From Phenylobacterium sp. NIBR 498073 (lineage in GTDB: Bacteria > Pseudomonadota > Alphaproteobacteria > Caulobacterales > Caulobacteraceae): DNA of 64,000 nt. The stretch lies in contig NZ_CP114599.1 of assembly GCF_027286305.1 (NCBI RefSeq), positions 4,012,001 to 4,076,000 on the forward strand, in the 5' to 3' direction. The notes beneath the pieces were generated by a model. That model saw only the letters and a program-made list of their open reading frames with translations, searched no databases and was not told the DNA's origin. Shown in pieces: positions 1,456-6,546 of this stretch; the first letter of the stretch is position 1, and each line of letters begins with the position of its first letter. The position numbers and the translations under genes are program-made.

Positions 1456-3051
1456 GTGATGGCCAGTGAAGATGTCTTAGAAGACAATCCCGTCCCGCAA
1501 CTGGATACGAGCGAGCCGCCCGCCGGCTCGGATCGGCGTGCGTTCATGGTGCGCAGCGCGATGGCCGCGGCCATCGCGACCCTGACCGGTCGGCCCATCG
1601 CGGCCTATGCGCAGACGCCGGCGACCTCGCCGCAGGACTCGGTGAAGCTCGATCCCAGCCTCAATGTCGTGAAGAAGTCCAAGGGGCCGGTGATGACCCT
1701 GGTGGACGAATTCTACAAGGTCGGTCCCGGCCCGTCGTCGTCGCACACCATCGGGCCGATGCGGATCACCTACGACTTCTATCAACGCTGCACGAAGCTG
1801 CCCGCCGCCCAGCTGGACACCGCCACGGCGCTGCAGGTGAACCTGTTCGGCAGCCTGAGCGCCACCGGCAAGGGCCATGGCACCGAGCGCGCGGCGCTGG
1901 CCGGGCTGATCGGCAAGGAGCCGGCGACGGTCGACCCCGCCTTCCTCGACAGCCTGGCCACCAACCCGGACCAGACTTTCAAGGTCAAGCTCGGGAACAA
2001 GGAGATCCCGGTCTCGCTGAAGAATATCGTCTATGACGCCACCAAGGGCGACTTCCACCACCCCAACACCATGACCGCCAAGCTGATGGCCGGCGACAAG
2101 GTGCTGCTGGAGCAGGAATACTATTCGGTCGGCGGCGGCTTCATCGAGTGGAAGGGCTACGAGCCGCCGAAGAAGAACCCGCCGAAGTATCCGTACGAGC
2201 GGATCAGCCAAGTCATCGAGCACTGCAACCGCGACAAGATCTCGATCGCCCAGTTGGCGCGCGCCAACGAGACGGCGATCTCGGGCAAGAGCGACGCCGA
2301 GATCGACGCCTTCCTCGACAAGATCCTCGGAGCCATGGACGCAACGGTGAAGACCGGGCTCGCGGCGCCGACCTCGACCCTGCCCGGACCGATAAAGCTG
2401 AAGACCAAGGCGCACGACGTCTATCAGAGCGCCCAGAAGCAGGAGGGCGATGCGCGCCGCGCCATCGGGCTCGTCGCGGCCTACGCCCTGGCCGGCTCGG
2501 AGGAGAACGCCCGCGGTCACTTGGTGATCACCGCCCCGACCGGCGGCTCGGCCGGGGTCCTGCCAGCGGTCATCTACTCACTGGGGCCGAACGGCGTGAA
2601 GATGTCGAAGGAGAAGCTGCGCGAAGCGCTGCTAGCCGGCGCCGTTATCGGCTACCTCTGTAAGCACAACGCGACCCTGTCGGCGGCCGAGGGCGGATGC
2701 CAGGCCGAGATCGGCGTCGCCTCGGCCATGGGCGCGGCGGCCATCGCCCAGGCCTATGGCGACGCGCCGCAGGTGGCGGCCAACGCCGCCGAGGGCGCGC
2801 TGGAGCACCACCTGGGCATGACCTGCGATCCGGTCGCCGGCTTCGTGCAGATCCCCTGCATCGAGCGCTGCGCGTTCGGGGCGGTGAAGGCCTGGACCGG
2901 CTATCTCATCGCCAAGAACGAGATCCCCGCCAACCGGCGCGTCGATTTCGACTCGACGGTCGACGCCATGGCGCTCACCGCCAAGGAGATGAACTCCAAG
3001 TACAAGGAGACCTCCGAAGGCGGCCTGGCCGTTTCGCTCGTGCTCTGCTGA
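1456..3051 (+). CDS. sdaA: L-serine dehydratase (iron-sulfur type) with an N-terminal Tat signal
   Basis: Family role: deaminates L-serine to pyruvate and ammonia using a [4Fe-4S] cluster. The beta domain begins near residue 80 with the hallmark GPGPSSSHTIGP (about 90-101). The alpha domain carries the cluster cysteines C415 (EGGC), C457 (MTCDP) and C468 (IPCIE), and the protein ends in the conserved C-terminal cysteine C531. At 531 residues it is about 75 longer than cytoplasmic SdaA. The extra N-terminus holds a twin-arginine signal: DRRAFMVR at 26-33, a hydrophobic stretch, then AYAQ near 50-53. Tat exports folded, cofactor-loaded proteins, so a periplasmic or membrane-facing enzyme is inferred. 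The porin gene follows 4 bp after the stop codon, so the two are probably co-transcribed. Confidence 0.88.
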   Translation: MMASEDVLEDNPVPQLDTSEPPAGSDRRAFMVRSAMAAAIATLTGRPIAAYAQTPATSPQDSVKLDPSLNVVKKSKGPVMTLVDEFYKVGPGPSSSHTIGPMRITYDFYQRCTKLPAAQLDTATALQVNLFGSLSATGKGHGTERAALAGLIGKEPATVDPAFLDSLATNPDQTFKVKLGNKEIPVSLKNIVYDATKGDFHHPNTMTAKLMAGDKVLLEQEYYSVGGGFIEWKGYEPPKKNPPKYPYERISQVIEHCNRDKISIAQLARANETAISGKSDAEIDAFLDKILGAMDATVKTGLAAPTSTLPGPIKLKTKAHDVYQSAQKQEGDARRAIGLVAAYALAGSEENARGHLVITAPTGGSAGVLPAVIYSLGPNGVKMSKEKLREALLAGAVIGYLCKHNATLSAAEGGCQAEIGVASAMGAAAIAQAYGDAPQVAANAAEGALEHHLGMTCDPVAGFVQIPCIERCAFGAVKAWTGYLIAKNEIPANRRVDFDSTVDAMALTAKEMNSKYKETSEGGLAVSLVLC

Positions 3052-3055
3052 GGCC

Positions 3056-4573
3056 ATGGGGCCGGGGGCGACAGTCCGGCGCGCGATCGCAGCCGGCGCG
3101 CTGAGCGCCGCGTTCGCGACCGCGGCCCAAGCCCAGGATCGGCCGGCGACGACCGCCGAGCTGCAGCAGCAGGTCTCCGCGCTGCAGGCGCAATTGCGGG
3201 CCATGGAGCAGCAGCAGCAGGCGCTGACCGCGACGCTCGGCCGGCTGCAGCAGCAGCTGGACGGCCAGACCGCCGCCGCGCCGCGGCCGGCCCCGGCGGC
3301 GGCCCCGCCTGCGCAGGCCGCGCTCGCCCCGCCGCTGACGACGGTGAAAAGCTCTGGCGAGTCGATGGGCCAGAAGCTGGCCGAGCGCTATCAGGACGGC
3401 ATCGTGATCTGGCAGACGCCGCCGGACGCCGACGTCCCGTTCCTGCTGAAATACAACATCAATTCCCAGGTCCGGTATCTGAACACCACCTCGGGCGAGG
3501 AGACCTTCACCGACCATCTGGGCGCCGAGCGCGCGGTCAACCTGCGCAACGACATCACCGTCAATCGCACGATGTTCATCCTCGGCGGCTACATCTTCGA
3601 TCCGCGGCTGCGCTACAGCTCGACGGTCTGGACCTCGGCCGGGTCGAACTCGATCGTCATCGCCGGCAACATCGGCTGGCAGTTCAACAAGGCCTTCACC
3701 CTGACCGGCGGCTATACCGGCGTGCCGGGCAGCCGCTCGCTGGTGAACACCTTCCCGTTCTTCCAGTCGACCGACCGGACCATGGCCGACAACTTCTTCC
3801 GCCCCGGCTTCACGCAGGGGATCTGGGCCAACGGGGACATCACCAAGGACCTGCATTACCTGGCCTTCGTCGGCAACGGCCTGAACACGTTGAACATCTC
3901 GGCGGCCAAGATCGACGAGAACCTGATGGCGTCGGGCAGCCTGTGGTGGGAGCCGCTCGGCGACTTTGGCCCGCCCGGCAAGTCGCGAAACATGTACGAC
4001 GACTACTACGCCTCGCCGGATCTGCGCGTGCGCTTGGGCACGTCGTTCACGTGGGCCAGGGAAGACCGCTTCTCAGACCTCGATCAGTCGAGTCCCGAGA
4101 ACACCTCGATGCACAATTCGGACGGCGTGCTGACCTTCGCCACCGGCGCCTTCGCGCCCGGCGTGACGGTGGACAACGCCACTTACCGGATGTGGGCGAT
4201 CGACGTCGGCCTGAAGAAGTACGGCTGGTCGCTGAACGGGCAGTACTATTTCCGCTGGATCGACGACTTCAAGGCCGACGGCCCGATGCCGATCGACACC
4301 ATGTTCGACCACGGCTTCGAGCTGTCCGGGGCGGCGTTCATCGTGCCGAAGAAGGTGATGGCCTACGGCCGCGGCTCGATGGTGTTCGGCGAGTTCCGCG
4401 ACTCCTGGGAGGCCGGGGTGGGGGTGAAGTGGTACTTCGTCCCGACCGAGCGCATGTGGCTGACCGCCGAGGTGATGCGCGTGGTCGACGTGCCCTATGG
4501 CGGCGTCTTCACCCCCTACACGGCCGGCCTGACGGCCTGGGTGCCGATGGTCCAGGCGGTGCTGGCCTTCTGA
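3056..4573 (+). CDS. Outer-membrane porin with N-terminal coiled coil
   Basis: A 505-residue secreted protein. Residues 1-27 form a signal peptide ending AAQAQ. Residues about 30-75 are a glutamine/leucine-rich coiled coil (ELQQQVSALQAQLRAMEQQQ), then a Pro/Ala linker. From about residue 100 it shows the alternating aromatic/polar pattern of a large beta-barrel and ends in a hydrophobic Phe (VQAVLAF), the usual BAM targeting signature. This architecture matches OprO/OprP-like and related alphaproteobacterial porins, but the substrate is not evident. It starts 4 bp after the Tat-signal serine dehydratase and is probably in the same operon. That suggests a link between solute entry and periplasmic metabolism (inference). 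Confidence 0.8.
   Translation: MGPGATVRRAIAAGALSAAFATAAQAQDRPATTAELQQQVSALQAQLRAMEQQQQALTATLGRLQQQLDGQTAAAPRPAPAAAPPAQAALAPPLTTVKSSGESMGQKLAERYQDGIVIWQTPPDADVPFLLKYNINSQVRYLNTTSGEETFTDHLGAERAVNLRNDITVNRTMFILGGYIFDPRLRYSSTVWTSAGSNSIVIAGNIGWQFNKAFTLTGGYTGVPGSRSLVNTFPFFQSTDRTMADNFFRPGFTQGIWANGDITKDLHYLAFVGNGLNTLNISAAKIDENLMASGSLWWEPLGDFGPPGKSRNMYDDYYASPDLRVRLGTSFTWAREDRFSDLDQSSPENTSMHNSDGVLTFATGAFAPGVTVDNATYRMWAIDVGLKKYGWSLNGQYYFRWIDDFKADGPMPIDTMFDHGFELSGAAFIVPKKVMAYGRGSMVFGEFRDSWEAGVGVKWYFVPTERMWLTAEVMRVVDVPYGGVFTPYTAGLTAWVPMVQAVLAF

Positions 4574-4731: not shown

Positions 4732-6546
<1,815 letters not shown>

Follow-up and report, generated by a model that had tools for sequence, protein, structure and literature searches.

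A predicted Tat-exported serine dehydratase beside a porin-like gene points to serine use outside the cytoplasm

The window, a stretch of 64,000 nucleotides from Phenylobacterium sp. NIBR 498073 (contig NZ_CP114599.1, positions 4,012,001 to 4,076,000), contains at 1456-3051 on the forward strand an open reading frame of 531 codons when counted from GTG 1456. We consider ATG 1459 the likelier start, and residue numbers are counted from it; all features of this gene and its neighbour lie on the forward strand. The product is a single-chain [4Fe-4S] L-serine dehydratase that is predicted to be exported. It scores 403.5 bits against the NCBIfam model TIGR00720, passing the equivalog cut-off for L-serine ammonia-lyase (345.1 bits), and a single chain holds an SDH_beta domain (1708-2154; PF03315, 7e-42) and an SDH_alpha domain with the [4Fe-4S] site (2236-3030; PF03313, 2.7e-65), each far above its Pfam cut-off. 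Its best solved relative, by sequence and by fold, is the Legionella pneumophila enzyme LpLSD (4RQO), which the fold comparison matches at E 7e-22 with 38% identity over 459 columns. The enzyme of P. haematophilum DSM 21793 is 98% identical to the window dehydratase, and the window genome encodes a second, ordinary SdaA of 39% identity that has no N-terminal extension.

We compared the protein with relatives from at least 80 loci, 60-98% identical to it, which were picked by peptide patterns in one scan of a genome collection, so that counts among these loci should not be read as prevalence. When 299 Pseudomonadota genomes were sampled evenly, two had the enzyme, one of them the window genome. 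In a tree of 104 sequences, with Caulobacteraceae SdaA and LpLSD as the only outgroup, the predicted exported form makes up one side of a branch with an SH-aLRT value of 100 and a long stem. The clade reaches across phyla (NCBI) that include Pseudomonadota, Acidobacteriota, Bacteroidota, Verrucomicrobiota and Planctomycetota, and many of its members are metagenome bins. A search for plasmid carriage gave no match in PLSDB.

The residues linked to catalysis and cluster binding in LpLSD are in place. H140 (1876-1878), present in 82 of 82 clade members and in all 22 cytosolic SdaA compared, is the equivalent of LpLSD His61, the proposed catalytic base (PMC12647591). The cluster ligands C414 (2698-2700), C456 (2824-2826) and C467 (2857-2859) correspond to LpLSD C343, C385 and C396 and are each found in 80 of 80 members, so that all four positions are invariant in the clade. 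The C-terminal C530 (3046-3048; LpLSD C458), for which a 'tail-in-mouth' role has been described (PMC12647591), has a counterpart in 78 of 82. Judged by its domains, score and catalytic residues, the protein is a member of the SdaA family, as the earlier note described it.

Other positions set the clade apart from the cytosolic enzymes. LpLSD and cytosolic SdaA share with the window dehydratase the two domains, the fold, the three cluster cysteines, the catalytic histidine and the C-terminal cysteine; they have no export signal, are about 38-40% identical to it, and carry Asn, Tyr and TNGAAG where the clade has Cys, Cys and TGGSAG. In LpLSD numbering, Cys replaces Asn400 in 80 of 80 members (C471, 2869-2871) and Tyr330 in 78 of 81 (C401, 2659-2661; Tyr or Phe in cytosolic SdaA), as against 0 of 22 at either position, and the glycine-rich motif differs by N291G and A293S. 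These cytosolic states are common to the 22 sequences compared and need not define the family. The position of Gly345 is Ala or Ser in the clade. We suggest from these patterns that the chemistry is probably kept, with possible differences in specificity or redox behaviour. That C401 and C471 form a disulfide is a guess; three members have Gly at position 401 and yet keep C471, so any coupling of the two is not strict.

The dehydratase stop codon (TGA, 3049-3051) is followed 4 nucleotides later by an ORF at 3056-4573 that we describe as an outer-membrane porin-like protein. Its sequence begins with a signal peptide (3056-3133) that ends at AQA before Q, followed by a coiled coil of residues 33-71 (3152-3268), which is helical in the model and has a Q/L-rich, heptad-like sequence, then by many beta strands and a C-terminal Phe. 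No Pfam or NCBIfam family could be assigned to it, and its fold matches, to 16- and 18-strand porins, come from a low-confidence model (pLDDT 46). The 4-bp spacing reported in the earlier note is thus correct, and the identification as a porin is weaker than it was put there. A profile search for PDB relatives returned only chance matches to coiled coils. In 13 of 80 relative loci, an orthologue of this protein (56-92% identical) lies no further than 6 kb from the dehydratase, and 44 of the 80 have one or more of five porin types (the window's own, Porin_2, Porin_4, OprD and DcaP) within that distance, a recurrence that fits export.

The first 51 residues of the dehydratase (1459-1611) form an extension that is absent from ordinary SdaA, and we interpret them as a predicted Tat signal peptide. 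The earlier note had drawn attention to an N-terminal D-R-R-A-F-M-V-R motif (residues 25-32; 1531-1554) and a hydrophobic stretch that would fit Tat export, and the relatives bear this out. Judged by inspection and conservation, the twin-arginine motif is followed by a hydrophobic run and then by a cleavage site at residues 49-52, AYA before Q. The twin arginine (R26 and R27) is kept in all 79 clade members with a readable extension, as is the Phe two residues further on (F29), and the following basic residue (R32) is kept in 73 of the 79. Among the relatives, R26 and R27 are each encoded by six different arginine codons, which indicates that conservation acts on the residue and not on the DNA, and that the motif is no chance find. 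Signals end in an AxA-like site in 63 members and in a lipobox in 13, together 76 of 78 tested, and both endings occur between close relatives within Caulobacteraceae. Such interchange between sites for signal peptidases I and II is expected only of exported proteins and so supports export. The window genome also encodes TatC (match at 1.1e-69).

Relatives that keep the extension and lack the twin arginine, the result that the earlier note had named as speaking against its proposal, were looked for and none was found; the motif is absent only where the whole extension is absent (L066 and L074) or where a contig end cuts it (L055). On this comparative evidence, export of the window dehydratase is very likely. 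L066 and L074 may have returned to the cytoplasm, or they may be artefacts of assembly or gene-start assignment. In another subgroup (L068-L073, Bacteroidota and one Acidobacteriota), a Cys-rich motif such as CGGCSSIDCTPC precedes the twin arginine; its role could lie in binding a cluster or metal, or in proofreading.

What the enzyme might be used for is most readily seen in the gene neighbourhoods of the relatives. We defined a fixed set comprising pyruvate formate-lyase (PFL), its activase, Pta, AckA, an MFS or AspT-type transporter, the five porin types, asparaginase, AspA and Dcu. Of 80 relative loci, 76 have at least one gene of this set no more than 6 kb away, as against 0 of 20 control loci of cytosolic sdaA. 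Since the relatives themselves supplied the set, and the controls are all from Caulobacteraceae, where PFL is rare, a test for PFL at the level of whole genomes matters too. The enzyme is present in six of 199 Caulobacteraceae genomes and a full-length PFL in four, all four being among those six (hypergeometric probability about 2e-7, with kinship ignored). Within 6 kb, the 80 loci contain PflB in 46, PflA in 40, MFS in 28, AspT in 27, Pta in 25 and AckA in 23 cases, and the PflB and PflA proteins are a true PFL and activase by TIGR01255 and TIGR02493, both above cut-off. For the neighbouring MFS protein we sought a known transporter identity and found no PDB relative at E 0.001, and NCBIfam similarity that was weak and below cut-off.

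The genes recur in several layouts: Pta-AckA-enzyme-MFS-PflB-PflA in Caulobacter, Brevundimonas and some Sphingomonas; enzyme-MFS-Pta-AckA-PflB-PflA in Gammaproteobacteria and Acidobacteriota; enzyme-PflB-PflA-AspT-Porin_2 in Microvirga; and enzyme-porin, as in the window. Many relatives have PFL, activase, Pta, AckA and a transporter beside the gene and the window genome does not: it has neither PFL nor a close MFS homologue, and its Pta-AckA pair lies at another locus, so a fermentation role cannot be read from the window genome itself. Upstream regulation gave no further support, as FNR-type sites (TTGAT-N4-ATCAA) in the 300 bp upstream of the gene at 79 loci numbered 2 against 0.5 expected with one mismatch and 7 against 5.7 with two, and the window has none.

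Degraded copies suggest how the two arrangements came to be separate. In Phenylobacterium PB1.003, the enzyme lies beside a porin and a Pta-AckA-MFS-PflB-PflA cluster lies on another contig, where the last 30 residues of a lost dehydratase copy remain between AckA and MFS (L133:6640-6729). The genome G173 presents the reciprocal case, with an intact enzyme in the PFL operon and a porin, 76-79% identical to the window's, that follows a degraded copy (L141, reverse strand), of which the signal peptide is left, joined to the final few residues just before the intact porin gene. These remnants show that porin-linked and PFL-linked versions once coexisted and that each lineage lost one copy. The porin-linked version is the one kept by the window genome.

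Taken together, the clade and its neighbours point to a use of serine outside the cytoplasm that has not been described. Our preferred reading, to which we assign a probability of about 0.68, is that the window gene encodes a type 2 L-serine dehydratase that is exported by Tat and deaminates serine, or a close relative of it, outside the inner membrane, with the pyruvate being re-imported. The enzyme would acquire its [4Fe-4S] cluster and fold in the cytoplasm before export, and would then be released into the periplasm, as the AxA site of the window protein predicts, or, in some relatives, be held in a membrane as a lipoprotein. Serine, or a similar amino acid such as cysteine or threonine, would enter through the co-encoded porin, and deamination would yield a 2-oxo acid, pyruvate in the case of serine, together with ammonia. 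For most relatives, uptake of the pyruvate would likely fall to the neighbouring MFS or AspT-type carrier, probably with formate or acetate leaving in return. PFL, Pta and AckA would then turn the pyruvate into formate, acetate and ATP, which would amount to an oxygen-poor fermentation of serine that begins outside the cytoplasm. With PFL and MFS missing in the window lineage, pyruvate would there feed general metabolism. The earlier note knew of no described role for such a module; we likewise found none in the open-licence literature, and the relatives' PflB, PflA, Pta, AckA and transporter genes now suggest pyruvate fermentation, a suggestion that does not extend to the window genome.

Several observations weigh against this reading. 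Residues near the cluster differ from those of all 22 cytosolic SdaA, so the substrate may have shifted; two clade members have no signal; FNR-type sites are not enriched; and the window genome has no PFL or close MFS. It is also chemically awkward to place an oxygen-labile cluster in the periplasm of aerobes. Actual export, enzyme activity, transporter roles and energetic benefit are, like the substrate, given the changed residues near the cluster in sequence, things that we infer. A bolder version of the proposal, offered tentatively and with the odds against it, is that the clade represents a rare and widespread extracytoplasmic serine fermentation, in which the Fe-S enzyme would be adapted to the envelope, possibly by a C401-C471 disulfide, and pyruvate would be exchanged for formate or acetate; uptake by this exchange would then cost no ion gradient, and the ammonia would not have to cross the cytoplasm.

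The alternative that survives best also has the enzyme exported, with a natural substrate other than L-serine, such as cysteine, threonine, D-serine or a serine-containing metabolite, and takes the cluster-side changes as a new specificity. We regard it as unlikely, with real points in its favour: the TGGSAG motif, Y330C, N400C and G345A lie near the cluster in sequence, a long branch separates the clade from the sampled SdaA, and cysteine is the substrate of the related CyuA enzymes (PMC12647591). The invariant histidine and three cluster cysteines, the nearly invariant C-terminal cysteine, and the score above the L-serine ammonia-lyase cut-off argue for serine, as do the PFL, Pta and AckA neighbours, which imply a pyruvate-like product, although cysteine or threonine could also give one. 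A quite improbable variant is that an exported serine deaminase serves chiefly to release ammonia in the envelope, for pH homeostasis or nitrogen supply, with pyruvate as a by-product; the asparaginase II and aspartase genes of some loci, the pH-homeostasis role proposed for a comparable pathway in Actinobacillus (PMC10634366) and the want of a PFL to use pyruvate in the window lineage would fit it, but the commonest neighbours serve the use of pyruvate, not of ammonia or acid. That the RR segment does not lead to export at all, and that the dehydratase stays in the cytoplasm, or is kept by its N-terminal helix at the inner face of the membrane, and passes pyruvate directly to PFL, would agree with the cytoplasmic location of PFL, Pta and AckA and with the two members that have no extension, but is very improbable in view of the invariant RR with its varied codons, the endings for both types of signal peptidase and the recurrence of porins near the gene.

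The preferred reading, Tat export followed by deamination outside the inner membrane, has partial parallels in known systems. Type 2 serine dehydratases are known as oxygen-sensitive cytoplasmic enzymes, and cofactor-containing proteins exported by Tat are typically redox enzymes, among which we know of no [4Fe-4S] dehydratase of central metabolism. The twin-arginine signal is common to those proteins and the window dehydratase, and insertion of their cofactor before export is described in PMC3712460. The closest metabolic analogue is the AnsB-AspA-DcuA pathway proposed for Actinobacillus succinogenes (PMC10634366), which likewise starts with an amino-acid reaction in the periplasm and takes up the product for use in oxygen-poor metabolism, export in our case being predicted from genes. 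Genes for periplasmic asparaginase II, AspA and Dcu sit together with the dehydratase set in some relatives; asparaginase, however, hydrolyses an amide and needs no cluster, whereas the window [4Fe-4S] lyase would release pyruvate and ammonia. The [4Fe-4S] L-cysteine desulfidase CyuA (9FYI) has a homologous catalytic domain and chemistry, but Cys23 and Glu25 replace the catalytic His of serine dehydratases, and no signal peptide is mentioned for it (PMC12647591). Our search for an exported SdaA found no description in open-licence papers, the only ones covered, which is weak evidence of absence.

If the preferred reading is correct, the cell envelope would be the workplace of an Fe-S lyase of central metabolism across a clade in five phyla, and amino-acid fermentation could begin outside the cytoplasm, with porins, carriers and PFL joined to the dehydratase in one pathway. 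The exported dehydratase would also offer a concrete case for studying the survival of an exposed catalytic cluster in the periplasm.

Some further features of these loci are recorded here as separate observations. Downstream of the porin-like gene, the window encodes a flavin monooxygenase (4732-6546) that resembles the pentalenolactone D synthase PtlE (686 bits, below the cut-off of 1100). A partial second copy of the 5' end of this gene (4738-4816) lies just upstream of the dehydratase, at 1192-1267, with 80% identity over 79 bp, and is also present in the P. haematophilum locus L003 and not in L004. A small gene of one family is found downstream of the dehydratase in three Acidobacteriota loci (L048, L050 and L065), that of L048 being a putative 2OG-Fe(II) oxygenase (PF13759). 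In several phyla, a DUF3300-cluster gene lies near the dehydratase (L017, L036, L060 and L064; PF11737 shown in L060).
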